From positions 1 to 38,270 of IMG/VR virus record IMGVR_UViG_3300030419_001593: 38,270 nt of DNA; one strand, written 5' to 3'. This DNA is from a virus. Of the stretch, positions 15,405-30,492 are shown in pieces (position 1 is the stretch's first letter; each line of letters begins with the position of its first letter). A program made the translations under genes and the position numbers. The notes beneath the pieces were generated by a model. That model did not search any database. It was not told the DNA's origin and was given only the letters and a program-made list of their open reading frames with translations.

Positions 15405-16363
15405 ATTATCTCCATCCAATGGTCTACCATTTCCTCAACCATAGATTCAAAAGTATACTCTGGCTTCCACCCTAAAGTCTCTCGAATCTCTGTAGAATCC
15501 CCCTTTAAAAAATTTAATTCCTGGGGTCTGAAGAACTTCTTATCCACGGTAACGTAATCTTCATAGTTCATATCTAGATAATCAAAAGTGGTCTTACACA
15601 TATCTCTAATGGTCCTGCTCTCTCCTGTAGCAACCACCCAATCCCCAGGCTCATCGTTATTTAAAATCATGTGCATAGCTCTCACATAATCTTTAGAGTG
15701 GCCCCAATCTCTAGAGGCATCTAAATTACCTAATGCGAGGGTATCCTTTAAACCTTTCTTAATCTCTACCGCAGTCTTTACAATTTTGTTGGTTACAAAA
15801 TTAGATCCACGACGAGGAGATTCATGATTAAATAGAATACCATTGCAGGTGTGCATACAATAACCTGCCCTGTAGTGCCTGACGAGATTGTACCCCATAA
15901 CCTTAGCGCACCCATAAGGAGAGGTGGGGTTCATAGGAGTAGTCTTTCTTTGGTAACCGTCCTCATCTATAGAGTTACCAAACATCTCCGAGGAACTAGC
16001 CTGGTAAAATTTAACGTCAGGTAGTATAGCTCGGCAAATCTCCAATAAATTTAATACCCCTAAAGCATTCGTCTGGATGGTGAACGAAGGAACATCAAAA
16101 CTAATCCTAACGTGACTCTGCGCTCCCAGGTTGTAAATCTCATCAGGCTTAACTGAAGATATTATACGAGTGAGGGAAGGAACATCTAAAAGGTCTCCGT
16201 AATGGCAAGTTACATTAAGGTGACTGATTCTATCGTCTTGATTTTCCGCTACCGAATTACGTCTTACTATACCATGTACCTCATACCCTAAAGATAAAAG
16301 GTACTCCGATAAATAACTGCCGTCCTGACCCGCTATACCAATAATTAATGCTTTTTTTGTCAT
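15401..16363 (-). CDS. gmd: GDP-mannose 4,6-dehydratase
   Basis: A 320-residue extended short-chain dehydrogenase. The NAD(P)-binding GIAGQDGSYL motif is at residues 9-18; the catalytic block SSSEMFG (123-129) and YGCAKVMGYN (150-159) supplies the Ser/Glu, Tyr150 and Lys154. It makes GDP-4-keto-6-deoxymannose, the first step towards GDP-fucose, GDP-rhamnose or GDP-perosamine. A GT10-type fucosyltransferase is encoded at 20693-21541, so GDP-fucose or a relative is a likely product; no GDP-fucose synthase is visible in the window. The ATG follows a promoter motif by 4 bases. Confidence 0.95.
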   Translation of the reverse strand: MTKKALIIGIAGQDGSYLSEYLLSLGYEVHGIVRRNSVAENQDDRISHLNVTCHYGDLLDVPSLTRIISSVKPDEIYNLGAQSHVRISFDVPSFTIQTNALGVLNLLEICRAILPDVKFYQASSSEMFGNSIDEDGYQRKTTPMNPTSPYGCAKVMGYNLVRHYRAGYCMHTCNGILFNHESPRRGSNFVTNKIVKTAVEIKKGLKDTLALGNLDASRDWGHSKDYVRAMHMILNNDEPGDWVVATGESRTIRDMCKTTFDYLDMNYEDYVTVDKKFFRPQELNFLKGDSTEIRETLGWKPEYTFESMVEEMVDHWMEII

Positions 16364-16367
16364 GACC

Positions 16368-16376
16368 TATTATAGC
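16368..16376 (-). promoter_or_regulatory. Promoter motif GCTATAATA, 4 bases before the gmd ATG
   Basis: Minus-strand motif spanning the last codon and stop of the upstream aminotransferase-like gene; spacer GGTC to ATG at 16363. No SD site precedes gmd. The core CTAT-A-ATAG is palindromic, so it also reads as the motif on the other strand. Confidence 0.6.
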
Positions 16377-16966
16377 TCACTAAAGACACTCATCTCTCTT
16401 AAATCGGGCCAATCTTCCCACACCCATCGTTTAGAGGGGGATTCTTTCGCTTCCTTTAGCTTGTTTAGGCCGTCCTCTGCGGTCTCTGGTGTCATGTAGT
16501 AATGATACCCTACTGATCTAATGTCCTGCTCTCTCCAGGGCTTCCCAGGAAGTCTCCCGTCATAAGACATTTTCTTAAGCTCATTAGCTGCGTCCTTATC
16601 ATCTGTCAGAATCATACCTCCTCTACCCAAACTTAAGTGTTTTTGATATTGAAAGCTTAAACACATTAAAGTCCCTGGCACATAGCTATTTTCCCTCCAC
16701 AAGACAGCGGCATCTATGATATTCGTATTACCTATTTGATAATACTCATACCATTTAGAATTATTCCACTGCCAAGATAAGCCAAGCTTAACAGCGGTAA
16801 AAGGTACTGAAATATAAGTTCTAGTCGGTATTATTATATTATCAGCTTTTACATACCTAAGGCATAACTCTATTGCGTGAGTACAACAGTCAGTAGCTAT
16901 AGCGTACTTAGCCCCATAAAACTTTGCTATCTCATTTTCAAACGTCAGTACAGGCTCGAAGCTCAT
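16370..16966 (-). CDS. Miniature DegT/DnrJ/EryC1-type aminotransferase
   Basis: A 198-residue protein, about half the usual 370. The N-terminal Y-A-I-A-TDCCTHAIELCL and IIIPTRTYISVPF, then LSFQYQKHLSLGRGGMI, correspond to the PLP-binding core: the Lys in QYQKHLS is the expected Schiff-base lysine (family pattern S-x-x-K-x-x-x-x-x-x-GG). The C-terminal small domain is mostly missing, replaced by a short Trp-rich end. It may use a partner, be a degenerate enzyme, or bind PLP differently. Family role: sugar 4-amination. The gene overlaps the previous one by 4 bases. Confidence 0.75.
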   Translation of the reverse strand: MSFEPVLTFENEIAKFYGAKYAIATDCCTHAIELCLRYVKADNIIIPTRTYISVPFTAVKLGLSWQWNNSKWYEYYQIGNTNIIDAAVLWRENSYVPGTLMCLSFQYQKHLSLGRGGMILTDDKDAANELKKMSYDGRLPGKPWREQDIRSVGYHYYMTPETAEDGLNKLKEAKESPSKRWVWEDWPDLREMSVFSEL

Positions 16967-17709
16967 CCTTTATTCCTTAGAACTACTACTGGCTGAGGGC
17001 ATTCACTTCCCGTATCTACCTCAAGCATTTCTTTAAAGTTCTTAGGATAGTAATCTACTATCTCAAACCCCTCAATCAGTTTATAAAATCTCTTATTGCC
17101 ATAAATCCTATGAGCATTAAAACAAACTTTGTCTACCCCATTAGGCACTGATAGGTAGAGGAGCCCTCCAGGCTCCAGCATCGTCTCTCTGACCTCCTTC
17201 ATGGCCTCCAAGTCCCCATCAGGGTTGATAGGGTCTCCGAACCTTCCTAAGCCGTCATGCTCAAAGGAGGAGATAGAAAACGCCGCTTTAAACTTTCTAG
17301 GAGACTTTTTAAACTCTTCAACTGTGTAAAGAGATAGGCGAGGATCATTAGTGGTGAGCTTGTTGTACTCAATCGTAGAAGGCCAGCCTCCGTAATCTAA
17401 GCAAACGGCTTCGTACCAAGGCTGACACGATCCTATTATTGCTACATCCATGCCTTTCACGGGATAAGCATCCAAGGCTTGATATAAGTAATAATCTGTA
17501 AGGCCATAACCTCCTGTCTGTCTTCTTTTAATACCTTGCAGGAAGTACTCCACATGTTGAGCATCATAGTGCTTGGTAGTCTCAGCCTCATCTTTAAAAT
17601 ACCAGTGAATAAGCTCTATATCCCCATCCTGCGTAAACCTCTTTTGGGTTTCTTCATCTAACTCGTCCCACTTGACAGGCTCAGTGCTACTCTGTAATCT
17701 TCTAGCCAT
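16963..17709 (-). CDS. DUF268-like methyltransferase-type protein
   Basis: A 248-residue protein. The blocks VAIIGSCQPWYEAVCLDYGGW, shortened here to the core IGSCQPWYEA, plus TIEYNKLTT and SISSFEHDGLGRFGDP match DUF268 proteins from polysaccharide clusters, which have a Rossmann-like methyltransferase fold. The block MLEPGGLLYLSVP is the typical post-motif III of class I methyltransferases. A glycan-related methylation role is inferred from the context. Start supported by AAGGA upstream. Confidence 0.7.
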   Translation of the reverse strand: MARRLQSSTEPVKWDELDEETQKRFTQDGDIELIHWYFKDEAETTKHYDAQHVEYFLQGIKRRQTGGYGLTDYYLYQALDAYPVKGMDVAIIGSCQPWYEAVCLDYGGWPSTIEYNKLTTNDPRLSLYTVEEFKKSPRKFKAAFSISSFEHDGLGRFGDPINPDGDLEAMKEVRETMLEPGGLLYLSVPNGVDKVCFNAHRIYGNKRFYKLIEGFEIVDYYPKNFKEMLEVDTGSECPQPVVVLRNKG

Positions 17710-17718
17710 ATAAAATCC

Positions 17719-18123
17719 TTATAGTATAATATTGTCTACTCTGTAAGTGTCAGATTCATAATCCATACCACCTCGCATACCTTCAGTAAATACAATAAAC
17801 TCGTTCCCCTCTTCGCATATCTTCAACGCATGAACCTCATTAGGTTCAGTAGTTACTAAGTCCCCTTCTTCAAGAAGAACCATGCTGGCATCCTCAACGG
17901 AGCCTAAGGGTTTGTACCAGTACTCAAGAGCCCCTTTAGTAATCAACATGTGCTGGGTGGTCTCTTTGTGGTAGTGATTTCCTCGTATAGCTCCAGGGTT
18001 AGATTTAACTACCGTAACATGTTCGATGTGATCGTCGTAAAATACATCAACAATGCTTCCACGCTTATCCTCATGCAGTTCTAAATGGGTATCCTCTACG
18101 TCTCTTATATTTCTTTTTATCAT
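17719..18123 (-). CDS. Cupin (RmlC/FdtA-like) sugar-modifying protein
   Basis: A 134-residue single-domain cupin: IRGNHYHKETTQHMLI holds the first metal-binding motif (HYHK..), and TEPNEVHALKI the second. LELHEDKRGSIVDVF at the N-terminus is typical of sugar epimerases/isomerases of the FdtA/RmlC group. It likely isomerises a nucleotide-linked 4-keto sugar. The start overlaps the methyltransferase-like gene upstream by four bases (ATGA). Confidence 0.75.
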   Translation of the reverse strand: MIKRNIRDVEDTHLELHEDKRGSIVDVFYDDHIEHVTVVKSNPGAIRGNHYHKETTQHMLITKGALEYWYKPLGSVEDASMVLLEEGDLVTTEPNEVHALKICEEGNEFIVFTEGMRGGMDYESDTYRVDNIIL

Positions 18124-19301
18124 GGTGTTATAAACTCTATATTCTTATTAATACCTTTAAGCTTCTCTTTAATATGCTCAGATATATTCCACGATAGTAT
18201 TATCGCGTAAACTTTAGAATATTTACTAAAAACAACCTCATCACTTTCGATAGGAATCCTAGACAGAGGGGTGTACTTTCCAATCTTAAACTCTGAGGAA
18301 TCGGTCACGTAATCTATGATAGTGCTGTCAAGATTATAAAAATTTAGAAACGTGTTACCTTTCGCTGCTGCTCCTACACCTACAATAGGTGCGTTGCTGT
18401 GCGTTGCGATGCTATAGAGTTTTTGTAAAAAGGTATTGCGGCGGAAGGTAATACTATGCATGAAATTCTTATACATACTAGGATCAAATAACCTAGCTTC
18501 TTCTTCTTGTTTGATGAATACTTTTACATCATTAGTCTTCTTCCTAGAGGTATCCGCAGAAGCATAAACTCTAATAGATCCTCCGTGATAAGGAATCCAC
18601 TCCACATCAAAGACTTCTAAACCAGCAGAAGCTAGTACATTACATGCCGACTTAACTGTAAAATAGCTGACATGCTCATGATAAATCTGATCGAACTTTT
18701 TATCCGTAATAGTATTGTACCAATAAGGAACTTCAAATACGAACACTCCCCCTGGATTAAGGACTTCCTTGACACCTAAAGCAAAATCTACAGGATCGTT
18801 AGCATGGTTATAAACATTATTAGCTACAACCAAATCTACTTTAACACCCTCACTAGCTAGAGTAGTCGCTGTATATTTAGAAAAAATCCCACAGTAAGTA
18901 TTTAAACCTTTTTCTCTAGCTAATGAACACATATTATAGGCAGAGTCTACACCTGACGCAGTATACCCCCTATCACAAAACTTTCCTAACAAGTACCCAT
19001 CGTTAGAACCAATTTCCAAGACCGCACTTCCTTTAGGAAGTTTTAATTTATCAGGTACATGGATAGAATAAATATCCCAATGATCTCTGGAGACCTTAGA
19101 GTTAGAAGCAGTATAAGAGTAGTCATAAAGGTTATACCTTTCCTTCGCCTTAGTAGGGTACTTAACTGAAACGTGTCCCGTCTCTGTATCTAATAAACAT
19201 TCTAAGGAGTACACAGGCTCAGGAGATCCTAAGTACTTCTCCGAAATAAAAGTATCAGCAAACGGATGCATACCTAACTTTATAATACTAACTTTACTCA
19301 T
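18120..19301 (-). CDS. Sugar C-methyltransferase (NDP-hexose type)
   Basis: A 393-residue class I SAM methyltransferase. The N-terminus (LGMHPFADTFI) aligns with the putative zinc-binding N-domain of C-methyltransferases, though not all Cys ligands are apparent. The SAM motif is VLEIGSNDGYLLGKF, with a DLVVANNVYNHANDP block, and then QIYHEHVSYFTVKS and YHGGSIRVYA of the C-terminal domain (PF08484 type), with GVGAAAKGNTFLNF. These proteins methylate C3 or other carbons of keto-sugars (TylCIII, TcaB9). SD present (AGGAA). Confidence 0.85.
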   Translation of the reverse strand: MSKVSIIKLGMHPFADTFISEKYLGSPEPVYSLECLLDTETGHVSVKYPTKAKERYNLYDYSYTASNSKVSRDHWDIYSIHVPDKLKLPKGSAVLEIGSNDGYLLGKFCDRGYTASGVDSAYNMCSLAREKGLNTYCGIFSKYTATTLASEGVKVDLVVANNVYNHANDPVDFALGVKEVLNPGGVFVFEVPYWYNTITDKKFDQIYHEHVSYFTVKSACNVLASAGLEVFDVEWIPYHGGSIRVYASADTSRKKTNDVKVFIKQEEEARLFDPSMYKNFMHSITFRRNTFLQKLYSIATHSNAPIVGVGAAAKGNTFLNFYNLDSTIIDYVTDSSEFKIGKYTPLSRIPIESDEVVFSKYSKVYAIILSWNISEHIKEKLKGINKNIEFITP

Positions 19302-20324
19302 TTAATAGGTTCCTGGCTTTCTATCGTCAAATCTTATTCTACGCAACCTCTCCGCAGAATCAAAAGGATTTGTGAATAACACATAATCTTGAGGGCATTC
19401 GTAATAATTATCTACATAACAGTTGATAGCCGTGTCGCCCTCTGACATATAAGTATAATCTTTCAGACTACATTGATCCCAAACGGTAATATAATCAGAA
19501 GGAGGAGGAGGCGAATCTATATCTCTATGAGCCACATACCTTACCTTTGTAGATCCTTCACAGGATAACTCAATTCCAGAGGCTCCGAAAACGGGAGGCA
19601 TTACTACGGTAGGTATAGCTGAGACATCAATCCTATCCCTCCTATCAACCACCCAAGGTTCATTATGCAGAAATCCTCCATACTCTGAGAGAACTTTACT
19701 TCTAGAGGAGTTATCATAATAGTAATTATTAAAAGATATCTTATCCCTAACTTCAGAACCTAAAAAGTCTTTAGATGATCCTAAAATATTACTTACAGAC
19801 ACTAAGCTAGACCTGGGGCCTACCCCCTCAGCTACCATCTTAGATGAGTGACCTAAATCGCATCCAACAACCCAAAGAGTCCCCTCACTATTATCTTTAA
19901 AGGACACAAAAGGGGCCGACTCCAACTTTTTAGGAGCGACAGAAGCCGTGACCAATACACGCATTGGAGAGCATTCATAACCTTCTGGGGCAACTAAGTC
20001 AGTATTGTCTACCACGATAGCAGGGACATCCTCTTTTATTTCAGAGAAATCAACCCCTATAAATGCGTGAGGTTTGTTATTAATACAATTATTAATAACT
20101 ACAGGGGAGTTTAGTTTACACCCATACATCCTTAAGACTCCACCCTTAACAATAAAGGAAGGGCCTTCCTTACTTTCTATAGAAAAGCCATTACCTATAA
20201 TAGTAAGATCGTGAGTATACTGAAAAGGTATGGTTATAGGCTCATCTAAATAATAAGACTTATCTAATACTATTACTAAATTTTGATTACTATCTAATAA
20301 ACTCTTTATCTGACTCAAATCCAT
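19302..20324 (-). CDS. Beta-helix-like protein inside the glycan block
   Basis: I start at the ATG at 20324 (MDLSQIKSLL); the upstream alternatives at 20336 and 20363 cannot be excluded. The sequence has repeated short strands (LTIIGNGFSIES, FIVKGGVLRMYGCKL, VVINNCINNK) like a right-handed parallel beta-helix of the pectate-lyase superfamily, plus a Cys-containing, less repetitive C-terminal half. No signal peptide. It could be a sugar-processing enzyme or a virion-borne carbohydrate-binding protein. Its position between the cupin and C-methyltransferase genes suggests a glycan role. Confidence 0.55.
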   Translation of the reverse strand: MDLSQIKSLLDSNQNLVIVLDKSYYLDEPITIPFQYTHDLTIIGNGFSIESKEGPSFIVKGGVLRMYGCKLNSPVVINNCINNKPHAFIGVDFSEIKEDVPAIVVDNTDLVAPEGYECSPMRVLVTASVAPKKLESAPFVSFKDNSEGTLWVVGCDLGHSSKMVAEGVGPRSSLVSVSNILGSSKDFLGSEVRDKISFNNYYYDNSSRSKVLSEYGGFLHNEPWVVDRRDRIDVSAIPTVVMPPVFGASGIELSCEGSTKVRYVAHRDIDSPPPPSDYITVWDQCSLKDYTYMSEGDTAINCYVDNYYECPQDYVLFTNPFDSAERLRRIRFDDRKPGTY

Positions 20325-20700
20325 AATACGGTCCATTCTTAAATTCATAAAATAAGGTTTCATCCTCTAGAGCTTCTAAAGAGTGTCCCCCTTTAAATAA
20401 TACCGCACAATCACCAGAGCGTAGGGCAGTTTGATATATAAATGAATCATCCAAATCGTAGAAGGTTCCTTGAACCATCCCGCTCACAACAACCCAAGAT
20501 TCCTGGGTGATATCTGTAGTGCGTTCAATCGGTAAATGCTTGTGAGCTTTAACCTTAATACCTTTATTTAACTTTCTACCTGATACTTGCAGGTACTCTT
20601 CTTCGGGGCTTAGATCGGCTCTATAATCCGTCAGTTCTTCTCCTCTGAGAACAGAAGCTAAAAGAATAGAAGGATCGACTTTAGAGTATATCTTAATCAT
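20290..20700 (-). CDS. WbuC/cupin-fold protein
   Basis: Start at the ATG at 20700, overlapping the fucosyltransferase stop by 8 bases; AGGAG lies upstream. 136 residues. The cupin motif appears as KVKAHKHLPIERTT, then a beta-rich domain with GDCAVLFKGGHSLEAL. WbuC-type cupin metalloproteins are found in O-antigen and capsule clusters, function unknown. It fits the glycan block. Confidence 0.65.
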   Translation of the reverse strand: MIKIYSKVDPSILLASVLRGEELTDYRADLSPEEEYLQVSGRKLNKGIKVKAHKHLPIERTTDITQESWVVVSGMVQGTFYDLDDSFIYQTALRSGDCAVLFKGGHSLEALEDETLFYEFKNGPYYGFESDKEFIR

Positions 20701-21541
20701 TCTTAAAATACTCCTCAATAGCTCCTGCAATACAATCATGCTGGGATATACTATAGTTCTCGGTCGCGTGTTTGAAGTTATGCTCTACTGCCTCCTGCAT
20801 ACTTTCGTAAAGCTCAGGGCTTAACTTATCTAAAATGGCTTCTAACTCTTCTACCGTATTAAACCTAAGTATACCGTCCTCCCTAAATCCAAAATCAGAT
20901 ATGTTAGGACATCCATAATAAATGGGAACAGTTCTAGTCCAGAAGCACCCTAAAGCTTTCTCCTGCCAATGGTTCCTTTGAATATGATTTTCCGTAGCTA
21001 TAGAAAACATAGCATCAAAGATAATGCTCTTGTTATAATCATCCAAAACATCAGGAGGGTAGGTATTGGGCAGAATCTCTATTCCAGGATAGGGAGTCCT
21101 CTTCGATGACCATATCTTGTGGGGAACAGAATGATTTCTAAGAAGCTCGCAAGCAGGCTGTCGAATAGCAAACCCGTAATCCTGTCTAGACCATGTAGAT
21201 ATCAAATAGGATACATAGAACTTCTTATCTTCAAACTCTGGTTTGTAAGAAGGATCAATGTAAGGATCATGACGAACGTGATGCATTATGGACCCAGGAA
21301 CTTGCTCCAAGATATCCTCGTTATACGTTGTCATTATCAAATCATAACGATGAGCATTAGTCTTAATCTCCTCAAGAGGTGTGCAGGACCAGGGAGGTTC
21401 GGAGTCTATGTACACATACTTAACCCCTTCCTCCCGTTCAAAATAACTCATCCTCGCAGTATCTACATGGCACTTAAATGATAAAGGAAGCTTTAGATTT
21501 TTCCACGGACCATAGCACCGAGCTAAATACTTATTTCCCAC
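20693..21541 (-). CDS. GT10-type fucosyltransferase
   Basis: A 282-residue protein starting at GTG 21541. The signature FSIATENHIQRNHWQEKAL followed by FWTRTVPIYYGCPN is the GT10 alpha-1,3/4-fucosyltransferase motif (family pattern FxxxxENxxxxxYITEK, then VPIYxG). The upstream YVYIDSEPPW block matches the family's N-terminal acceptor domain (ESPP-like). The likely donor is GDP-fucose or a GDP-6-deoxyhexose made from GDP-mannose by the gmd product. The N-terminus lacks a membrane anchor, unlike animal enzymes. Confidence 0.85.
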   Translation of the reverse strand: MGNKYLARCYGPWKNLKLPLSFKCHVDTARMSYFEREEGVKYVYIDSEPPWSCTPLEEIKTNAHRYDLIMTTYNEDILEQVPGSIMHHVRHDPYIDPSYKPEFEDKKFYVSYLISTWSRQDYGFAIRQPACELLRNHSVPHKIWSSKRTPYPGIEILPNTYPPDVLDDYNKSIIFDAMFSIATENHIQRNHWQEKALGCFWTRTVPIYYGCPNISDFGFREDGILRFNTVEELEAILDKLSPELYESMQEAVEHNFKHATENYSISQHDCIAGAIEEYFKND

Positions 21542-22061
21542 TCTTAAAAACTACCCCATGTAACTCTAATACTTCGACACCGTTATCTTTACAAGTGTTA
21601 AGTACTCGATTCTTTAAGTATAAGTACAACTCTACATCATTTTTAGCGTCCGTATATAAATCCTCAGAATCAAGCATAATATGTTTTATGTACCCAGTGT
21701 CTATCATGGACTTCAAATTTAAGACACCTTTCAAAGTCTCTATCTTAGGAATAAAGCTTACATGGTCAGGCAACTGGCTGCCTATCATCTTAACTTCGGA
21801 TGGGCTTTCCATATTAGATAGGGCGAAGTATTTTATATTGGGATGCTTACTCATCATATCCAGAGCGTCTGGAATATGAAGAGTAGGCACAGGAGGCTTG
21901 GTCCTTCCTTTAGGGTAATCTAGGAATACATCAGAATCAATATCCACAAAAGATTTTAACTCCTCTTTATCCTTGACATGAGCCATATTAATTCTTACGA
22001 CAACATTCTTAGTGTCTTTAAATTCAGGTAACTTTAATAAATTATTTGAAAGTAGTATCAT
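21531..22061 (-). CDS. PEP/pyruvate-superfamily TIM-barrel protein
   Basis: A 176-residue protein. The order VVVRINMAHV, DVFLDYPKGRTK, YFALSNMESPSEVKMIGS, FIPKIETLKGVLNL and HIMLDSEDL follows the strands of pyruvate kinase / HpcH-HpaI aldolase type barrels, where KIET..G..N supplies the conserved Lys-Glu pair. It is shorter than either family, so it is a minimal barrel. In this block an aldolase that condenses pyruvate or PEP with a sugar is attractive, giving a 2-keto-3-deoxy acid for CMP activation by the gene at 25937-26620. That function is inference. AGGAG precedes the ATG. Confidence 0.6.
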   Translation of the reverse strand: MILLSNNLLKLPEFKDTKNVVVRINMAHVKDKEELKSFVDIDSDVFLDYPKGRTKPPVPTLHIPDALDMMSKHPNIKYFALSNMESPSEVKMIGSQLPDHVSFIPKIETLKGVLNLKSMIDTGYIKHIMLDSEDLYTDAKNDVELYLYLKNRVLNTCKDNGVEVLELHGVVFKSGK

Positions 22062-22711
22062 ATATCTCTCCTATAGTTAAATGTTTTTAGGTATTGAGAA
22101 TCTTTCACCGTGTAATCGAAACTATTAAGATCCTCGGCATACAGTCGATCTATTACAGAGCAAAAATAATCCAAATCCTCCGTAGATAAATCATAATAAT
22201 TATTTTTAGAAGAGCTAAACTTAACCCCCTCTTCGAAGGAGACGTTTAAATCCTCTTGAATATCAGTAATAGCGTCCATTTCTATCTTGTAGACCTTATT
22301 ATAGGTGTCTAACGGGGCGCACATATCAGAAATAGGCATGAAATGGTCAAGTTGCGGGTGCCACTCAATTATAGAGTCTAAGTCCTTGACGAAAGAATTG
22401 AATTTCCTACCAGACCTAGGTACAACATATTCAAAATAGGAGGATATAACCCTATCATACGGATTCCTAACCACTAAAAACTTAAAATAATCCTCGTAAT
22501 TACGAATCTCGCTGGCTGGCTTGGATACTTTAGAAACACTTTCATGAAGAGGGGAATTGGGAACGTCCACTTCTTCCTTGGCTACAACGGTAGCTCCCTC
22601 TATGAATGTGTGGAGGTGGTACTTAAGTGTACTACATGCAACCCTGGGGATAAAGTGGTAAACGAAACCCTTATCCTTTGAAACTAATAGTTGATTGAAA
22701 TTTATACGCAT
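22058..22711 (-). CDS. Carbohydrate sulfotransferase-like protein
   Basis: A 217-residue protein with both PAPS-binding motifs of sulfotransferases: IPRVACSTLKYHL (residues 21-33, the 5' phosphosulfate loop) and FLVVRNPYDRVISSYF (78-93, the 3' phosphate site). A HPQLDHFMPISDMC block and a KIEMDAITD segment follow, as in HNK-1/chondroitin-type carbohydrate sulfotransferases. It would move sulfate from PAPS to a glycan. The ATG lies 5 bases after a perfect GCTATTATA promoter motif embedded in the end of the upstream gene. Confidence 0.82.
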   Translation of the reverse strand: MRINFNQLLVSKDKGFVYHFIPRVACSTLKYHLHTFIEGATVVAKEEVDVPNSPLHESVSKVSKPASEIRNYEDYFKFLVVRNPYDRVISSYFEYVVPRSGRKFNSFVKDLDSIIEWHPQLDHFMPISDMCAPLDTYNKVYKIEMDAITDIQEDLNVSFEEGVKFSSSKNNYYDLSTEDLDYFCSVIDRLYAEDLNSFDYTVKDSQYLKTFNYRRDI

Positions 22712-23883
22712 CTCTTTATAATAGCTAAAGCCTCATCAGCTTCATCTCTAGTTAGATTAAGATTAGGTCTAAGTCTTACCGTAGTGTCTCCTGCTGTATT
22801 CACTAGAAGACCCTCTCTTAAAACCTTTTCTAAAAACGACTCTCTATCCGATCCAGTATCAAAATCAAATGCTAACATAAGACCCACCCCTCTCACATCC
22901 TTAAGAGAATCTATCCCTTTTAAACCTTCGAGTAGGTATGGGCCTACATTTTTTACATTATCTAAAATACTATATTCAGCGTAAGCTTTTAAGATATGCT
23001 TACACCGTATCATGTCCATCACTGTAGCATCCCAGGTGGCTTCTAGCTTTTTATAAGGCTGTTTGAATATTTTAGAATACTTATCTTTAACCATGATGCC
23101 TGAGATCTGGGCCTTCTTACCGAATATTAAAATATCTGGTTCTACCCCTAGCTGCTCATAGTACCATTTAGTACCTGTGATACCCATCCCAGTTTGAACC
23201 TCATCAAAGATTAAAGGTACGTCCCACTCATCGCAAGCCGCTCGCACCTTTTCAAAGAATCCTTCATAGAACGGTTTGTCTCCGTAGGTAGATCTGATAG
23301 GCTCAACCAAAACAGCAGCAACGTCTCCTCTTCTAAGGAGCCACTCTACCTCCATATGGAAACAACCTTCACCTAATCCATCAGCCTCCCATATGTATGA
23401 AGAGGGCCAACCATCCAACCTCTTACCTACCTCGCCATCTCTAGAGGTAGCAAAAGACCCCCAGCCATTAATGCCGTGGAAGGATTCAGTAAATGTAATA
23501 ACTTTAGGATTCACATGAGGTACTTTATCTATAAAATGCTCTATAGCAGTTTTTAAAGCAGCTTCTACCGCAAGAGACCCTGTGCAGCAGTAGTAAAAGT
23601 TAGAAAAACAATCAGGGGCAAACTTGGTAAAAGCTTTATCGAACTCTATACTCTCATCTGATCCAATAAAACAGTTAGTGATTTTAGTATGAGCTACCCT
23701 TAACACCTCATCTACAAACTCATCTGTTTTAAATATAGGATGATTATAACCTAGAGGGTGTGAAGCAAACATCCCCAAGAAATCTAAAAACTCACGGTCA
23801 CTATTCTTATCATATAAATAAGAATCATGGCTCTTGTCAAGATCAATTCGAATGTTGTACTTATTGCTTCTACTTACGTTCAT
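22702..23883 (-). CDS. Class III aminotransferase, L-lysine 6-aminotransferase-like
   Basis: A 393-residue PLP enzyme (ATG at 23883, 10 bases after GGAG). The core FDEVQTGMGITGTKW (226-240) and FGKKAQISG (254-262) match the lysine epsilon-aminotransferase (LAT) group, with Asp227 for the pyridine nitrogen and Lys257 as Schiff-base lysine. In this cluster the substrate is likelier to be a keto-sugar or cyclitol than lysine. It follows an AroB-like cyclase gene, so together they could make an amino-cyclitol. Start overlaps the cyclase gene by 14 bases. Confidence 0.85.
   Translation of the reverse strand: MNVSRSNKYNIRIDLDKSHDSYLYDKNSDREFLDFLGMFASHPLGYNHPIFKTDEFVDEVLRVAHTKITNCFIGSDESIEFDKAFTKFAPDCFSNFYYCCTGSLAVEAALKTAIEHFIDKVPHVNPKVITFTESFHGINGWGSFATSRDGEVGKRLDGWPSSYIWEADGLGEGCFHMEVEWLLRRGDVAAVLVEPIRSTYGDKPFYEGFFEKVRAACDEWDVPLIFDEVQTGMGITGTKWYYEQLGVEPDILIFGKKAQISGIMVKDKYSKIFKQPYKKLEATWDATVMDMIRCKHILKAYAEYSILDNVKNVGPYLLEGLKGIDSLKDVRGVGLMLAFDFDTGSDRESFLEKVLREGLLVNTAGDTTVRLRPNLNLTRDEADEALAIIKRCV
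22717..22725 (-). promoter_or_regulatory. Internal promoter motif GCTATTATA, 5 bases before sulfotransferase ATG
   Basis: Exact motif on the minus strand with spacer AAGAG to the ATG at 22711. It is embedded in the last codons of the aminotransferase gene, so it is not merely an intergenic AT-rich patch. A transcript starting at the ATG would be leaderless. Confidence 0.6.
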
Positions 23884-24877
23884 CAAAGTACTTCTCCAAA
23901 ATATTAGAAAGGTTATCTATATCTTCGTAGTGAGTCACTCGATAATCAGCGACACCATAAGGTAAGATACAAACCAACATTCTTCCTACATTCTTCTTAT
24001 CCTTCAATAGCTTAGAAATGTAACCATCAAGATCCTCCATTTCAAAAGAAGGTAAATTAAACTCTATCTTACTTTGCAGATAATCCAGAGTATCTTTAGG
24101 TATAAGCCCTAATCTGTAAGAAACATAATTAGCTATATGCATTCCTAGGGTTACTGCTAACCCATGCTTTACAGAGTAATTACTAATAGATTCTATTGCA
24201 TGACCGAAGGTATGTCCGTAATTAAAAATACGTCTATCGTTCTCATCGAACTCATCCTTCTCGATCATCTCTTTCTTTATTCTAAGACTCTCTGCTATGG
24301 CCCCAGATAAGTCTTCTTTATCTATTTTATCCAGGTAGTCAGAATCACACAGCATAAAATAATGAAGCATCTCACCAATACCTGAATCTATATCAGAATC
24401 CTCTAAGCTATTTAAAAACTTAGGATCACACCATATATTATCTGGCGGGTAAAAGGAGCCAACTAAATTTTTAACACCTCGATGATTAATGGAGGTCTTG
24501 CTCCCTATGCAGCTATCTGCTTGAGCTAGAAGGGTGGTAGGTATAAAAGACCAACTTATACCCCTATAAAGAATTGAAGCTATAAAAGAGGTAACGTCCT
24601 GAGTTATACCTCCTCCAACAGCCACAAGCAACGTATCTTTTTTAACCTCTTGATGCCTACAAATATAATCTAATAAAGCGATACACTTATCTAAAGTCTT
24701 ATTACTTTCTGTAGCACTTATAGTGCAAAAGTAATCAAACTTATCTACTAAAGAGTCTTTGTACAGATTGTATACATTGCGATCAATAATAGCTATGGAG
24801 TTTTTTATCTTAGGAATGTCTTGTAAATCGGTAAAGCTAACTTTGTACTTCTTCCTGTACGACTGGACTTCAAACAT
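23870..24877 (-). CDS. Sugar phosphate cyclase (3-dehydroquinate-synthase-like)
   Basis: A 335-residue member of the AroB superfamily. GGG (88-90), IPTTLLAQADSCIGSKTSIN (112-131), KNLVGSFYPP (136-145), the E-x-LHYF zinc-ligand block (169-174) and FNYGHTFGHAIE (218-229; His222 and His226 bind zinc) are all conserved. The family includes DHQ synthase and the cyclases making valiolones, inososes and other cyclitols. Context (aminotransferase, SDR, heptose-isomerase-like protein) argues for a cyclitol rather than shikimate. Substrate undetermined. GGAGG precedes the ATG. Confidence 0.9.
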   Translation of the reverse strand: MFEVQSYRKKYKVSFTDLQDIPKIKNSIAIIDRNVYNLYKDSLVDKFDYFCTISATESNKTLDKCIALLDYICRHQEVKKDTLLVAVGGGITQDVTSFIASILYRGISWSFIPTTLLAQADSCIGSKTSINHRGVKNLVGSFYPPDNIWCDPKFLNSLEDSDIDSGIGEMLHYFMLCDSDYLDKIDKEDLSGAIAESLRIKKEMIEKDEFDENDRRIFNYGHTFGHAIESISNYSVKHGLAVTLGMHIANYVSYRLGLIPKDTLDYLQSKIEFNLPSFEMEDLDGYISKLLKDKKNVGRMLVCILPYGVADYRVTHYEDIDNLSNILEKYFDERK

Positions 24878-25553
24878 TCATAAAACCTCCATCCACCACA
24901 ATATCCTGCCCTGATATATAAGAATTCAAATCACTAGCCAGAAACAAAACTACGTTAGATATATCTTTAGGGGTAGCGAGCCTACCTAAAGGAATACTAC
25001 CCTCAACTTCACGAATACCGTCTTTTCCTAGGATTTTTTTAGTTAAATCCGTCATCGTGAAGCCTGGAGATACGGAGTTTACCAGGACCCCCTGAGACGC
25101 TGCCTCTGCCGCTATAGCTTGGGTTAGGCCCCGCAGGCCGAACTTGCTTGCCGAGTACGCAGCGCGGCCTACACGGGACTTGTGAGCCCATATAGAGGCT
25201 ACGTTGACAATCCTTCCATAGCCCCGCGAGGCCATCCCTCCCAGGACAGCCTTGCTAATTTTATAAGCCCCTGTAAGATTAACCTTTAATATATTATCCC
25301 ACGCCTCATCTGAAGTTTCACAGAAAGGCTTCACTTCATTGACGCCCGCATTATTAACACATATATCAATAGTCATACCTTCTATACTCTGCAAGAAGGA
25401 TTGCACAGACTCATCATTTAAAAAGTTTAAAGTCCCCGTGCTAGTGGCTATAACCTTAGCCCCTTGGTCGATAAAATCCTTAGTTAACTGTCTCCCAATA
25501 CCTCGGCTTGCTCCTGTAACTAGAACGGTCTTCCCTTCAAACATCATAGACAT
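24870..25553 (-). CDS. Short-chain dehydrogenase/reductase (SDR)
   Basis: I choose the ATG at 25553 but those at 25565, 25547 and 25544 are possible. The protein (about 227 residues) has the NAD(P) motif TGASRGIG, the NNAG segment, catalytic Ser in NVASIW, YSASK Tyr-Lys and the terminal VDGGF of FabG-type SDRs. It would reduce or oxidise a hydroxyl of the sugar/cyclitol intermediate. A segment at 25081-25200 is unusually GC-rich (about 63 percent), suggesting a recent patch from another genome. Confidence 0.88.
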   Translation of the reverse strand: MSMMFEGKTVLVTGASRGIGRQLTKDFIDQGAKVIATSTGTLNFLNDESVQSFLQSIEGMTIDICVNNAGVNEVKPFCETSDEAWDNILKVNLTGAYKISKAVLGGMASRGYGRIVNVASIWAHKSRVGRAAYSASKFGLRGLTQAIAAEAASQGVLVNSVSPGFTMTDLTKKILGKDGIREVEGSIPLGRLATPKDISNVVLFLASDLNSYISGQDIVVDGGFMNV

Positions 25554-25953
25554 GCTCAACATCACTCCGACTTACAGCTAATCTAATAGCAGGCTTATCT
25601 CCTACCGCAGTAATCTTATGCTTTCTACCCTTTTCTATAAAAACTATATCACCAGTCTTTACAACTTTCTTAACTCCTTCAATGTCCCACTCCCACTCTC
25701 CATCAATAATGTACCACCATTCGTTCCAGTCTGGGTGATGATGCTCTCGGTTACCCTCACCAGGATTTTGACAGATTAAAGTAGCGGAGTTACTATCAGA
25801 ATCAATAACTCTATAGCTCCAACTAGGATCAGGAGCATCCACTAAAATGCTAGAAATATTTACAACCTCCTGGTTAGAGGAAAATAGTTCGTTATTTTCT
25901 ACACCATCCTTCTTAAGGATAGAGGGTACGTCTGCTTCAACTCTTTCCCGCAT
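25537..25953 (-). CDS. Cupin-domain protein
   Basis: A 138-residue cupin: NREHHHPDWNEWWYIIDGEWEW, shown here in parts as HHHPDWNE (metal-binding motif 1) and GDIVFIEKGRKHKI (motif 2). The N-terminal 35 residues look like an arm. It belongs to the sugar-processing block and may isomerise or dehydrate a nucleotide sugar, or bind it. Start supported by GGAG and an overlap with the upstream gene. Confidence 0.75.
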   Translation of the reverse strand: MRERVEADVPSILKKDGVENNELFSSNQEVVNISSILVDAPDPSWSYRVIDSDSNSATLICQNPGEGNREHHHPDWNEWWYIIDGEWEWDIEGVKKVVKTGDIVFIEKGRKHKITAVGDKPAIRLAVSRSDVEHVYDV

Positions 25954-26620
25954 TTAAGTAACTCCATACAGCCTCAGCCATTTTAAAATCTTCTTCATAA
26001 TCAATATCAATCTCGGAGAAGCCTTTTAAAGTAACAAACCCCACACTACCGTCTCCACCATGATAAGCACACCCATACTTATCCATGTTTTCTAAAAACT
26101 TAGATTTTCTCCAACCCATCAAGGTACATGCATATGCATGTATTGGAGTGAGATCTTGAGAAGGAGGTGTTGGCTTCATCTGATCAAAGTTTATAGGATC
26201 TCCATCATAAATGCATTCTATCTGAACATCCTTTACAGATACTATAGTGTCGTACTTATTTGAAATAACCGCGCCAGTGAAGTCTTGTACCTCTCTGGAG
26301 GATATAAACGGTGAGGTAGGTAGTAATTGAATTACATACTCGCAATCTACCACGCACATGAATTCTTTAGTGAAATCATCATTAGTGGCTGAATCGGAGG
26401 AAAGATGCTCTGGTCGTTTATGGAAGAGAACTCCCTCCTCTTCTGCAATTTTACCAATCTCCTCAGACTCAGAATTAACATAAATTTCATCAAAACAGTC
26501 CGCTTTTTTGGCTGTTCTTATAACATGAGATATAAGAGGAATGTCTCCAAGAAGTCTAGTATTCTTGTTGGGAATCCTCGTACTCCCTGCCCTAGCGGGG
26601 ATCATGCAAACTCTTTTCAT
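25937..26620 (-). CDS. CMP-sugar synthetase (NeuA/KdsB/PseF type)
   Basis: A 227-residue cytidylyltransferase. The N-terminus MKRVCMIPARAGSTRIPNKN is the CTP-binding signature; HKRPEHLSSDSATNDD, LLPTSPFI and the terminal SEIDIDYEEDF (metal-binding Asp) complete the family pattern. It links a keto-acid or other sugar to CMP, the donor form used by sialyltransferases. A GT29-like transferase is encoded 595 bases upstream, so the pair is probably functional. No NeuB-type synthase is visible, so the sugar's origin is open. ATGA overlap with the SIS gene. Confidence 0.88.
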   Translation of the reverse strand: MKRVCMIPARAGSTRIPNKNTRLLGDIPLISHVIRTAKKADCFDEIYVNSESEEIGKIAEEEGVLFHKRPEHLSSDSATNDDFTKEFMCVVDCEYVIQLLPTSPFISSREVQDFTGAVISNKYDTIVSVKDVQIECIYDGDPINFDQMKPTPPSQDLTPIHAYACTLMGWRKSKFLENMDKYGCAYHGGDGSVGFVTLKGFSEIDIDYEEDFKMAEAVWSYLNAGKS

Positions 26621-27213
26621 GCGTCCTGCGTCCCACCTCGGAGCGGAGAGTTTTCCAATCTGTTCTTCTCTCCTCTAATTGAAGGGCACCTATTCTCGGT
26701 CCTGTGGATAAGCTCGTACATAAGCATCATACACATTACTTCTACGGTATGGAAGTAATCACATTCAAAGGCTAACTCAGAAATCTCTTCATCTAACACA
26801 TCAGACTTCTGACCTGAAATCATAAAAGTGTCCATTCCTCGTTCTTTAGCCCAATGAAGAGCATTTATAACATTAATGGAATTGCCTGAGCAAGACATCC
26901 CTATAACTAAAAAATCATCTGGGTTATCAGATTCCAGTATAATAGTTTCCAGCCATCTAAGGAAAACCTGCTCATGTCCATGATCATTAGCATTAGAGGT
27001 AATAAACCCTACACTGTCAAAAGAGTATACCGCTTTATCTTTAATGAGTCTGGTCAGGTCCGTGGACATGTGACACGAAACGAAATGAAGACCTCCATTA
27101 CCTAGAAGGAAGATCTTCTTTGCCTTATTTACCTTGTCTACCAAAGACAAGTACTCTGCGGACTCACAAGCATCCTCGCATCTCTTCTGTATATTTTCGA
27201 AATCAATAATCAT
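26617..27213 (-). CDS. SIS-domain phosphoheptose isomerase-like protein (GmhA type)
   Basis: The ATG at 27213 follows AAGGAG and yields 198 residues. IFLLGNGGLHFVSCHMSTDL and VIGMSCSGNS (shown in short form: LLGNGG and GMSCSGNS) are the sugar-phosphate binding loops of GmhA-type SIS isomerases, which convert sedoheptulose 7-phosphate to heptose 7-phosphate. A C-terminal His pair (FHTVEVM, LIHRTE) is typical. It could feed a heptose or another sugar phosphate into the pathway, possibly sharing sedoheptulose 7-phosphate with the cyclase. Confidence 0.82.
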   Translation of the reverse strand: MIIDFENIQKRCEDACESAEYLSLVDKVNKAKKIFLLGNGGLHFVSCHMSTDLTRLIKDKAVYSFDSVGFITSNANDHGHEQVFLRWLETIILESDNPDDFLVIGMSCSGNSINVINALHWAKERGMDTFMISGQKSDVLDEEISELAFECDYFHTVEVMCMMLMYELIHRTENRCPSIRGEKNRLENSPLRGGTQDA

Positions 27214-27214
27214 A

Positions 27215-27907
27215 CTATTCTCCTTTAAAGTACATGGTATCATAGCTCGGGTCATTCAGAATCTGCTCGAAATAATCGTCTATTTTAATACGATCATCAT
27301 TAGCGTACAATACGTTTTTAAAAAACAAATACTGACTGTCAGGATCATGTCTGTCGGGGTTAGTAGCGAGCAACCTTTCAAAGTCTTGCACATTCCCCCC
27401 TTCTTTAAGATACCCAGTATCATAAAGAGTTCTAAAGAAATCCAAACCAAAAAGGCGAACCTCTTTTAACTTAAAAGATAATAAATCTACAAGAGCTACG
27501 GTGCCAGAGTTAGGACGGCCCACTACTTGATCTTTAATAGGATAATATAAAGAATCACTAACCCATCTAGTAGGGATAATATCATCTAAACCTTCTGATC
27601 TTTCTGGATAGGTAAAATACTCTGACTTGGGGTACGTACTACACACATACTTTACTCCGCAATTCTTCCAAAGAGGACCGTCAATAGGGCCACCAGCATC
27701 GGGCCAAGCATCTAAAGTGTTGTACAGAACGTCCGTGCGCTTACCTACGTCCTCAGACTTAGAGGAATCTAAAGGAAGGGCTCTATTTAATCTTACTACT
27801 ATATCATAAGAATCAATAAGCTTACCTAACCCTTTACCTTTAAGGGATCCTCCTGAAGCTACCATAGCTACAGTCTTTCCCTCTAAATAATTCTCATAAG
27901 AAATCAT
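27215..27907 (-). CDS. GT29-like sialyltransferase family protein
   Basis: A 230-residue protein with the two sialyl motifs in order: the L motif at about residues 13-43 (VAMVASGGSLKGKGLG, IDSYDIVVRLNRA) and the S motif at about 129-158 (VGRPNSGTVALVDLL, EVRLFGLDFF). A later His (187) and YLFF block fit the family's third and very-small motifs. GT29 enzymes, best known from animals, use CMP-sialic acid. The CMP-sugar synthetase gene lies just downstream. The protein lacks the animal membrane anchor. Acceptor and donor unknown. Good SD (GAGG). Confidence 0.78.
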   Translation of the reverse strand: MISYENYLEGKTVAMVASGGSLKGKGLGKLIDSYDIVVRLNRALPLDSSKSEDVGKRTDVLYNTLDAWPDAGGPIDGPLWKNCGVKYVCSTYPKSEYFTYPERSEGLDDIIPTRWVSDSLYYPIKDQVVGRPNSGTVALVDLLSFKLKEVRLFGLDFFRTLYDTGYLKEGGNVQDFERLLATNPDRHDPDSQYLFFKNVLYANDDRIKIDDYFEQILNDPSYDTMYFKGE

Positions 27908-28591
27908 CTAAACCTCTACTTTTAATAACGTATAGTTGGAAAACTTTATTGCACCTTTTAGAGTATACTTCAATGTTGTTAACCCCTCTCCCTTGTAGTA
28001 TTGATCTTGTGGGTTATTAGCGAACGCCCAAAACCTATCACTGTTCTTCTTCCAATGAGGAGTGCCTACACCAGCCCCAGTTACATGAGAGGTTGGAGGG
28101 TGAGGCATTGACATGAACATACCCTCACTGACACCAGGCTCGATACCTTCTCGAACACACCTCATTCTAAGATCATCATCCTCTCCACCCCATCCCCAAT
28201 ACTCATTAGAAAATCCATTAACCTTCTTAAAGCTCATCTTATCCATAAGAGTAACTCCTCCAAAGTTAGTGGGGTAGCAAGCTTTGTACCCTAAGTAATC
28301 TAATCTTCTTGCTAGATGAGTAGGCGTCCTCCTAAAGCTGTAATCAACTTCTAAAGGAAGTAGGTCTACATCATGAAAAACAAAATAATCACAGGTATCC
28401 TTCCCAACATCATACCCTATATTGCAAAGCTTGGCTCTATTAAATAAACCATCTCCCTGCTGCTCCACGATATAAATCTCATGATCGAACTCTTCCAAGT
28501 ACTTACTCATATAAGGAGCAAATACCTTTAAATGGTCTTCTCTGTCCCTGTAAGGAACTACTATACCTAATTTAAAGTTGCCCTGCGCCAT
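27908..28591 (-). CDS. GT7-family (beta-1,4-galactosyltransferase-like) glycosyltransferase
   Basis: A 227-residue protein with three GT7 hallmarks: GLFNRAKLCN (48-57), FHDVDLLP (72-79, the metal-binding DxD) and YWGWGGEDDDLRMR (131-144). These are nearly identical in order and wording to animal B4GALT enzymes (FNRAK, DVDLIP, WGWGGEDDD). The enzyme would transfer galactose or an N-acetylhexosamine from UDP to a glycan. Much shorter than animal enzymes, without a membrane stem. Confidence 0.88.
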   Translation of the reverse strand: MAQGNFKLGIVVPYRDREDHLKVFAPYMSKYLEEFDHEIYIVEQQGDGLFNRAKLCNIGYDVGKDTCDYFVFHDVDLLPLEVDYSFRRTPTHLARRLDYLGYKACYPTNFGGVTLMDKMSFKKVNGFSNEYWGWGGEDDDLRMRCVREGIEPGVSEGMFMSMPHPPTSHVTGAGVGTPHWKKNSDRFWAFANNPQDQYYKGEGLTTLKYTLKGAIKFSNYTLLKVEV

Positions 28592-29195
28592 TTACTCTTT
28601 CGTCCCTAGGTCTTACATTATAAAGAGCCCTTCCAAACCAATCAATCTTGTAACCCGCCTGAAGGCATTGATTAATGTGAGCATAATCTATAAGGTTAAG
28701 ATTTTCGGGAGGGATATGATCCGCAAAAGGAATCTTAGAAAATATAGAAGTTCGATAAGTGGGCATGGCTACGTTACCAGGCACTACCCCTCGGGAAGAA
28801 TCACAAGCCAAAGTATTTCCTTTATAAGTTACTTTACCCTGATCCATTAACTGGACTTCATGCTGAAACTTAACCCCACCAATCCAAACATCTACCGAGG
28901 GATTTCTTTTAAGCTTCTTTCTAATGTGCTTACCAGCGCCAGGAAGGAATTCATCGTCATCATCTAAGAAAGTAATAAACTCTGTCTTGGCTAATGCGGC
29001 ACCTACGTTGGCTGCCATGCCTCCATAGTAGCCCCACTTCCTTCCCAGGGTTACTACCTGATGATCGCCTCCTGGGGGGATCTCACAGCCGTCTGCTACA
29101 ACTATAACATCAAAACCTTCAAGCTTGGCAGAGTTTATAGCGTAGTTTAAAGTCTTTCTTCCTATTGTCTTAATTATTACTGTAGTATCAGTCAC
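28572..29195 (-). CDS. GT2-family glycosyltransferase
   Basis: A 207-residue GT-A type transferase. DTTVIIKTIGRKTLNYAI at the N-terminus, then VAKTEFITFLDDDDEFLPG-type sequence (short form: FITFLDDDDEFLPG) gives the DxD-containing strand. The start is a GTG at 29195, overlapping the upstream gene by 8 bases and preceded by GAGG. It is smaller than most GT2 enzymes and lacks a C-terminal extension. Donor sugar unknown. Confidence 0.82.
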   Translation of the reverse strand: MTDTTVIIKTIGRKTLNYAINSAKLEGFDVIVVADGCEIPPGGDHQVVTLGRKWGYYGGMAANVGAALAKTEFITFLDDDDEFLPGAGKHIRKKLKRNPSVDVWIGGVKFQHEVQLMDQGKVTYKGNTLACDSSRGVVPGNVAMPTYRTSIFSKIPFADHIPPENLNLIDYAHINQCLQAGYKIDWFGRALYNVRPRDERVNGAGQL

Positions 29196-30435
29196 CTGTA
29201 GCTCCTCTCATTTTAGCTTCTTTCTGATCCATTGCGAACTTTAAAACATCCAATCTATGATATACCACCTTACGAAGATCGAAAAGATTTTCAGTTATAC
29301 TATGCAGGTTCTCCCCCATCTCACGAACTTTCTTAGGATTCTTAATGAGACTCGTTAATACTCTAGTCCATTCTTGGGGAGGTGCATCTGGGGGTATTAA
29401 ATAACCTGTCTGCCCATTAATTATAGTATCGGAATAACACCCTACATCTGTAGCGACTAACGGAACTTTATACCTGCCACACTCAGCGACCTTGATATCT
29501 GATTTACTGTCATTGAATTCATTATTTTGAAGAGGAGCTATTGCGATATCAATGTTACTATACATAATTCCGTAATCACTCGAAGGAAGGGCTTGGTAAA
29601 CATCCCAGTTCTTAGCGCCCTTAAAGCCCTTGAGGAGAGTCCTCTCGTAATTGTCCCAAACCTCCTGCTGCCAGTCATCAGGGTTGTTAGGGTCGCGGGG
29701 AGGGCGTCCGTAGAAGCCCCAGTGGACCCGTTCTCGGCCTGCCTTTTGGTTGACCATCGAAGGTACTGCTGCGAACTCTTTAACGTCTGCCTCATGGTGG
29801 ATTCCTCCTACCCAACCTACTCGCATTTGATTCTTTCTCATAGGAGGTCTTTTGGGCGCGTTCCATGCAGGTAATTCATAATCAATAGCATTCTTAATGA
29901 CAGCTAAAGTTCCAGTACAGAAAGGCGCTACTCGTTTAGCAAACTTCTGTTGCGTTACAGTAACTAAATCCGAGTTAGCATAAATGTACTTAGTTAAGTT
30001 TTCAAGATCATTTTCTACATACAACTGCTTCAAGCGATGATCATCATAAATATTGGTAAGGAGATCATCGGTATCATACCATACAAATTTACCCATCTCC
30101 TTAGCCAGCCCAATACCTCTAATTGTAGCAGGCCCACCAAAGTTACAAAGATTCTGAGTAAAGAAGACATCGCACCAATTCAAATCCTCATAACCTTTAG
30201 TGCCCTCCTCTTGTTTCTCTGTATCTATCTCTAGAGGATTTTCATTATATCTAAACTCAAAAAGATTAGGAAACTGCTTATGTAAAGTTTCAAAAGGGCT
30301 CCAAGCTCTGTAATAGCTGCAACCACCTTTGTTGGCAGGGGCTACCAGAAATCTAAGTTTTCTTCCCAAGCCAGGCCACTCGGTCATAGCTTCCCATTGG
30401 TTTCTCGAATCTACAGGTAATTTATGTTCTTGCAT
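29188..30435 (-). CDS. GT4-like glycosyltransferase
   Basis: The real start is the ATG at 30435; the GTG 48 bases upstream lies in a promoter/hairpin element. About 415 residues of GT-B fold. GGCSYYRAWSPFETL opens the N-domain, and the C-domain has IAIAPLQNNEFNDSKSDIKV and VATDVGCYSDTIINGQTGYL, the GT4 nucleotide-sugar site (E-x7-E pattern region). Such large GT4-like enzymes are common in phages near structural genes. It heads the glycan block, after the hairpin and motif at 30446-30479. Confidence 0.8.
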   Translation of the reverse strand: MQEHKLPVDSRNQWEAMTEWPGLGRKLRFLVAPANKGGCSYYRAWSPFETLHKQFPNLFEFRYNENPLEIDTEKQEEGTKGYEDLNWCDVFFTQNLCNFGGPATIRGIGLAKEMGKFVWYDTDDLLTNIYDDHRLKQLYVENDLENLTKYIYANSDLVTVTQQKFAKRVAPFCTGTLAVIKNAIDYELPAWNAPKRPPMRKNQMRVGWVGGIHHEADVKEFAAVPSMVNQKAGRERVHWGFYGRPPRDPNNPDDWQQEVWDNYERTLLKGFKGAKNWDVYQALPSSDYGIMYSNIDIAIAPLQNNEFNDSKSDIKVAECGRYKVPLVATDVGCYSDTIINGQTGYLIPPDAPPQEWTRVLTSLIKNPKKVREMGENLHSITENLFDLRKVVYHRLDVLKFAMDQKEAKMRGATGD

Positions 30436-30445
30436 AGTTAAAATA

Positions 30446-30473
30446 ATAGAGGGAGCCCGTAGGCTCCCTCTAT
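30446..30473 (-). terminator. 12-bp hairpin with adjacent TATTATTTT
   Basis: Bases 30446-30457 and 30462-30473 are a perfect 12-bp inverted repeat with a CGTA loop. On the minus strand it is followed by TATTATTTT, a fair rho-independent terminator for the small coiled-coil gene that ends at 30493. It also forms the very 5' end of the transcript from the promoter at 30471-30479, so a transcript may begin inside it. The next ATG (30435) has no SD site. Confidence 0.6.
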
Positions 30474-30479
30474 AATAGC
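30471..30479 (-). promoter_or_regulatory. Promoter motif GCTATTATA at the head of the glycan block
   Basis: Exact motif on the minus strand, partly inside the hairpin arm. It precedes the GT4-like gene by about 36 bases, unlike the leaderless sites, so the mRNA would have a short hairpin leader. A near-motif CTATTATTT lies 6 bases before the ATG at 30435. Confidence 0.55.
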
Positions 30480-30492
30480 TCACTTATAAAAA

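Follow-up and report, generated by a model that had tools for sequence, protein, structure and literature searches.

The virus record IMGVR_UViG_3300030419_001593 of IMG/VR, analysed here over its full 38,270 bases (the window), contains a compact island of glycan-related genes on the minus strand, spanning roughly 15.4 to 30.5 kb. Within it, a sialyltransferase-family enzyme of glycosyltransferase family 29 (GT29) is encoded beside a cassette, centred on an AroB-like cyclase, that is predicted to supply a donor activated with cytidine monophosphate (CMP). On balance we favour the explanation that GT29 and this cassette are the functional core of a surface-glycan biosynthesis locus, lying between gp32 and recA of an uncultured T4-like phage, and would handle a non-sialic CMP-activated residue; this confidence, which leaves appreciable room for doubt, refers to the explanation as a whole. 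It is based on the recurring order of GT29 and cassette genes, a GT29 fusion in one viral contig, the GT29 fold with its retained His187, the lack of a match to the sialic-acid synthesis enzyme NeuB, the active-site residues kept in the AroB-like enzyme and the fixed place of the island.

GT29 and its predicted donor cassette

The GT29 protein (27215-27907) matched PF00777 with 40.8 bits against a cut-off of 23, over sialylmotif L only. An alignment of 11 sequences placed D35, R39 and N41 in motif L, together with a motif-S-like Gly135 and an invariant His187; in the phage protein, motif S and what His187 does are assigned by analogy. In an AlphaFold2 model built from the window protein and ten relatives (predicted local distance difference test score, pLDDT, 79), the best structural matches were GT29 sialyltransferases (ST8SiaIII, 4.9e-7; ST3Gal1, Z 14.1, 3.3 Å, 178 aligned residues), and the modelled fold is that of a GT29 sialyltransferase, matching animal enzymes best. 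The family is not specifically animal, since it was reported from bacteria in 2018, in a paper whose text names no virus or phage (PMC5811610), and was present in 32 of 245 genomes of the bacterial phylum Marinimicrobia. No relatives of GT29, of the GT7 enzyme or of the sulfotransferase described below were detected in 50,697 phage records, and a single-sequence GT29 scan of the viral contigs gave no match.

Scans with an AroB-like alignment retrieved 12 viral and 80 genome loci (92 altogether), of which 91 pair the AroB-like gene with a short-chain dehydrogenase/reductase (SDR). Cytidylyltransferases occur in 70 of these loci, sugar isomerases of the SIS-domain type in 55, and HpcH/HpaI aldolases in 33 (cluster cl6; HpaI/GarL-like, recurring in the bacterial cassette and fuller than the 176-residue protein of the window), with Gfo/Idh proteins in 64 and 2-hydroxyacid dehydrogenases in 63, the last two being identified from their sequences by eye. 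The order GT29, cytidylyltransferase, SDR, AroB-like enzyme, aminotransferase, SIS and GDP-mannose 4,6-dehydratase (GMD) recurs in six viral contigs (L073, L156, L157, L159, L161 and L163). A metagenome-assembled contig labelled Thaumarchaeota (L076), which looks viral and is probably misbinned, has, like those six, GT29 directly upstream of the cytidylyltransferase and retains most of this order; the window differs in having SIS between GT29 and the cytidylyltransferase. The conserved unit shared by the window, the six viral contigs and L076 thus comprises GT29, cytidylyltransferase, SDR, AroB-like cyclase, class III aminotransferase and SIS, and viral L074 encodes a fusion of a GT29-like domain with SIS. 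Most of the Marinimicrobia GT29 copies examined adjoin CMP-sugar synthetases, one (L176) also with NeuB. Because the viral copies lie in the cassette and the bacterial ones mostly beside such synthetases, GT29 is as a rule found together with a CMP-sugar supplier, which in viruses with the conserved unit is, as gene context indicates, the AroB-type cassette.

The cytidylyltransferase, which sits with the cupin, SDR, AroB-like, class III aminotransferase and SIS genes, matched the PseF model at 4.9e-25 but far under its cut-off, and the CMP-NeuNAc synthetase model at 1.1e-14. NeuB (PF03102) was not found in the window, itself a fragment, or in the 12 viral records carrying the AroB-like cyclase, whereas the identical search matched 9 of 14 control genomes; a sialic-acid route was rejected on this basis, and the CMP-activated sugar of the cassette is probably not sialic acid. 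The AroB-like protein scored 365.7 bits against TIGR04425, under the cut-off of 400 that its bacterial relatives L090 and L127 pass, and is therefore called TIGR04425-related only; against the aroB model TIGR01357 it reached 249 bits (cut-off 305). Following the residue numbering and roles established for dehydroquinate synthase (DHQS), it keeps every checked substrate-, metal- and carboxylate-binding residue except Lys197, where all 14 viral-type copies have His and bacteria have Lys or His. The retained carboxylate-binding residues suggest an acidic substrate, and the presence of an aminotransferase suggests an amino product. Relatives of AroB within the sugar-phosphate-cyclase superfamily make cyclitols (PMC4426668).

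Under the favoured explanation, the SIS and AroB-like enzymes would yield a sugar phosphate or a cyclised product derived from it, which the SDR and the aminotransferase would tailor and the cytidylyltransferase would activate with cytidine triphosphate, after which GT29 would move the residue from CMP onto a glycan of the virion or the host envelope. The residue would be acidic, either a sugar or a carbocycle and possibly amino, and would differ from ordinary sialic acid. GT7, GT10, the GT2/GT4 enzymes and the sulfotransferase would serve as swappable decorators of this glycan or of one next to it, and the host would provide 3'-phosphoadenosine 5'-phosphosulfate (PAPS) and part of the nucleotide sugars. 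More specifically, and only tentatively, the cassette may produce a CMP-activated donor, either carbocyclic (a cyclitol) or a cyclised ulosonic acid, that the phage GT29 attaches to a surface glycan.

GT7, GT10-like enzyme and sulfotransferase

A sequence-only reading of the window had taken its GT7, GT29, GT10 and carbohydrate-sulfotransferase genes, together with CMP-sugar synthesis and a nearby GMD gene, for a counterpart of the animal sulfated sialyl-Lewis pathway. Its gene calls were borne out by Pfam matches over cut-off for GT7, GT29, the PF03567 sulfotransferase, the cytidylyltransferase and GMD, and the genes lie where it had placed them.

The gene at 27908-28591 is, by profile and structure-sequence matches (see the table), an unmistakable member of GT7 and keeps the motifs FNRAKL, DVD and WGWGGEDDD. 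At the gate residue equivalent to Tyr289 of bovine B4GALT1 the window carries Asn, which points towards N-acetylgalactosamine (GalNAc) or another donor rather than galactose (Gal). The Tyr that marks a Gal-donor beta-1,4-galactosyltransferase is thus replaced, and because of this the protein is filed as GT7 and not as a galactosyltransferase. In the bovine enzyme, a change of the gate Tyr broadens the donor range to GalNAc (Ramakrishnan and Qasba, 2002, as cited in PMC7955280, where the position is printed as 298). Tyr occupies the gate in viral loci L012, L013, L015 and L018, which are for that reason better Lewis x-like candidates than the window. In 13 viral loci (L005-L009, L012-L015, L018, L024, L031 and L032) a GT7 gene and a GT10 gene share an overlap of 4 bases. 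GT7-domain proteins of about 480 residues also occur in several copies per viral contig (L010, L016-L023 and similar).

The GT10 assignment was upheld in part. The protein itself has no PF00852 match; a relative at 33% identity matched at 0.001, and the more distant L156 and L013 relatives exceeded the cut-off. The donor-site motif EN...EK...VPIYYG is kept, and the structure prediction that the sequence-only reading had proposed as a check agreed with its family calls for GT29, as described above, and for this protein, whose best Foldseek matches were FUT11, FUT13 and FUT9. The fold alone does not prove GT10, because VIA-align scored FUT9 (Z 14.8) level with other GT-B enzymes. The evidence fits a GT10-like enzyme at 20693-21541 that has apparently diverged too far for the Pfam model, and it is not filed as a family member. 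GT10 relatives occur in cyanophages.

The sulfotransferase matched PF03567 with 59.5 bits (cut-off 22), and by eye its stretches IPRVACSTLK and VVRNPYDRVISSYF resemble PAPS-binding loops. Sulfation of animal sialyl-Lewis x is carried out by N-acetylglucosamine/Gal-6-O-sulfotransferases of PF00685; the island enzyme matches PF03567 only. As for fucose supply, GMD is present, and GDP-L-fucose synthase was not found in the window, an empty search that by itself proves little, as the gene could lie beyond the ends of this fragment or be a host gene; in the related loci L073, L156, L159 and L161 it stands beside or near GMD.

Organisation of the island

The record also encodes gp32-, RecA-, DnaB- and ribonucleotide-reductase-like proteins and six tRNA genes; RecA and DnaB share less than 60% identity with known phages. 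The island genes are tightly packed with short overlaps, and the position of the island is fixed in the window, L073 and L156, in the order gp32, glycosyltransferase, variable genes, GMD and recA. The GT7, cupin-like, DegT and GMD genes of the window resemble those of L002-L004 and its GT29 cassette and flanks those of L156 and L073, for which reason the window looks like a mosaic.

Table 1. Predicted genes of the glycan island, listed from the gp32 side (coordinates on the window; values are E-values unless given in bits).
Feature	Coordinates	Strand	Evidence
GT4/GT1-type glycosyltransferase, first gene of island	29188..30483	-	PF00534 8.5e-10; common to L073 and L156, relatives likewise placed after gp32
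GT2-type glycosyltransferase	28572..29195	-	PF00535 2.1e-7
GT7 beta-1,4-Gal/GalNAc-transferase-like enzyme	27908..28591	-	PF02709 2.7e-21; PF13733 9.6e-19; B4GALT1 structures in PDB 6.6e-37
GT29 sialyltransferase-family enzyme, 230 aa	27215..27907	-	PF00777 2.3e-10; alignment; fold
SIS-domain sugar-phosphate isomerase, GmhA-like	26617..27255	-	NF001628 1e-17 (under cut-off); PF13580 8.6e-6 (just under cut-off)
Cytidylyltransferase, predicted maker of CMP-activated donor	25937..26620	-	PF02348 1.1e-22
Cupin, possible epimerase/isomerase of cassette	25537..25953	-	PF07883 4.2e-16; relatives adjoin or are fused with cytidylyltransferase
SDR	24870..25565	-	PF13561 3e-51
AroB-like cyclising sugar-phosphate phospho-lyase, TIGR04425-related	23870..24877	-	TIGR04425 2.1e-109
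Class III aminotransferase, viral form of cassette	22702..23886	-	PF00202 2.1e-63; in 11 loci, nearly all viral
Carbohydrate sulfotransferase, PF03567 family	22058..22711	-	PF03567 7.3e-16
HpcH/HpaI-like protein, 176 aa	21531..22061	-	PF03328 2.4e-5, 24.2 bits (cut-off 25)
GT10-like (fucosyltransferase family) glycosyltransferase	20693..21541	-	No Pfam match of its own; motif, relatives, fold
Cupin-like small protein (by eye)	20290..20739	-	No Pfam or PHROG match; 42% identity to L002-L004
Sugar C-methyltransferase	18120..19301	-	PF08484 8.8e-34
FdtA/cupin-type protein, possible ketoisomerase	17719..18123	-	PF14667 1.4e-9 (over cut-off); PF05523 4.8e-4 (under cut-off)
DUF268 protein	16963..17709	-	PF03269 6.8e-31
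Short DegT-family aminotransferase-like protein, 198 aa	16370..16966	-	PF01041 3.8e-20; relatives about 61% identical over 195-198 aa in L002-L004
GMD	15401..16363	-	PF16363 2.3e-114

The island further encodes a 353-residue protein with no Pfam or PHROG match (19302-20363). Two products encoded elsewhere in the window, one a right-handed beta-helix protein (7854-9308) and the other weakly matching Laminin_G (35898-37571), are possible virion or receptor-binding proteins. In L074, the viral GMD gene (15734-17797) contains an in-frame intein-like insert, its product measuring 687 residues against about 320.

Competing explanations and known systems

That GT7, GT29, GT10 and the sulfotransferase jointly build a sulfated sialyl-Lewis-type glycan is favoured by the presence of all four families, by the coupled GT7-GT10 pair of 13 other viral loci and by the joint occurrence of GT7, GT10 and PF03567 in the three records holding L002-L004. 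The quartet, however, was found once, in this window. Among 35 GT7-bearing viral records, not all independent of each other, GT10 was present in 11 and PF03567 in 12, with both in 3 against 3.8 expected under independence, and GT29 in none (0/35); GT29 was found with GT7 in the window only, and with GT10 in the window, L073, L156 and L161. Such chance-level co-occurrence of GT10 and sulfotransferase, and the single meeting of GT29 with GT7, led to the rejection of the quartet as a conserved unit. The pathway reading also fails because NeuB and fucose synthase were not seen, the GT7 gate is Asn and the sulfotransferase belongs to PF03567 instead of PF00685; GT29 is not specifically animal, and about 6.4 kb separates GT7 from GT10 in the window. 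We consider it very unlikely. The gene set looks, from its composition, like a loose mosaic and not like an animal-type sialyl-Lewis pathway, and what survives of the earlier proposal is a complex, possibly sulfated and fucosylated glycan.

It is less improbable, though still unlikely in our estimation, that GT29 is a true nonulosonic-acid or 3-deoxy-D-manno-octulosonic acid (KDO) transferase using CMP-activated pseudaminic acid (CMP-Pse), legionaminic acid (CMP-Leg), N-acetylneuraminic acid (CMP-Neu5Ac) or KDO (CMP-KDO), with the acid or the CMP-sugar supplied by the host and the AroB cassette serving another purpose. The sialyltransferase-like fold is consistent with this, as are the models nearest to the cytidylyltransferase (PseF and CMP-NeuNAc synthetase, both well under the curated cut-off) and the NeuA-like neighbours of GT29 in Marinimicrobia, joined by NeuB in L176; NeuB was not found in the 13 viral records, however, and GT29 and the AroB cassette stay together across diverged viruses. 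This same persistence, in seven or more diverged loci, and the GT29-SIS fusion argue against GT29 being a chance neighbour of AroB-like, SDR, aminotransferase and SIS enzymes that make a small aminocyclitol or similar compound, which we judge quite improbable even though most bacterial cassettes are without GT29 and AroB relatives do make cyclitols (PMC4426668). Hardly credible is the view of the island as captured, partly decaying filler without joint function: similar cyanophage clusters have been left functionally open, with 'stuffer DNA' as one option (PMC3037559), but here the genes retain open reading frames, conserved active-site residues and the order of the cassette. The explanation we prefer, a GT29 core fed by the AroB-type cassette, has points weighing against it as well. 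Bacterial AroB cassettes usually lack GT29 (2 of 50 such genomes carry it), and the likeness of the cytidylyltransferase to NeuA/PseF-type enzymes makes a nonulosonic acid product possible; genes absent from the window, a fragment of 38 kb, may be located beyond its ends or in the host, and the product and activities of the cassette are predictions from sequence.

Phage glycan clusters and bacterial GT29 are already known, and it is the GT29-AroB cassette that appears to be new, no description of it having been found in the literature searched. If the cyclitol or cyclised-ulosonate reading is true, a non-sialic donor class and its use by GT29 would be new to description. Any new CMP-activated donor made by the cassette would mean that sialyltransferase-fold enzymes have another feed besides sialic acids and related nonulosonic acids. 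It would also give a function to the AroB-like/SDR/SIS/cytidylyltransferase core that is common and uncharacterised in bacteria, and would show phages shuffling glycan-decorating enzymes around a fixed island, thereby changing virion or host surfaces; the shuffled decorators include GT7-GT10 pairs that could make Lewis-like units.

Among known systems, the bacterial GT29 enzymes (PMC5811610; Marinimicrobia) share with the phage copy PF00777, sialylmotif L, the short form and a neighbouring CMP-sugar synthetase, although the Marinimicrobia copies examined lie in NeuA/NeuB-type clusters and the phage copies with an AroB-like cassette in which NeuB was not found. Bacterial TIGR04425 clusters have the SDR, AroB-like, SIS and cytidylyltransferase core in common with the phage cassette. 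In the genome loci L077-L155 this core, with a KdsB-like cytidylyltransferase, is accompanied by Gfo/Idh, 2-hydroxyacid dehydrogenase and HpaI-type aldolase genes, in contrast to the class III aminotransferase and GT29 of the viruses, and the literature searched gives no product for it. The viral GT7-GT10 pairs encode related enzymes in overlapping genes; in the window the cassette lies between the two. The animal sulfated sialyl-Lewis pathway shares the GT7, GT29 and GT10 families with the window and differs in its sulfotransferase family, its sialic-acid synthesis, its GT7 gate and its conservation as a set. The lipopolysaccharide (LPS) gene clusters known from T4-like cyanophages (PMC3037559; S-SCSM1, PMC9602691) resemble the island in their large sets of glycosyltransferase and nucleotide-sugar genes, GMD and fucosyltransferases, and the island is set apart from them by its GT29 and GT7, for which the phage records held no detectable relative.

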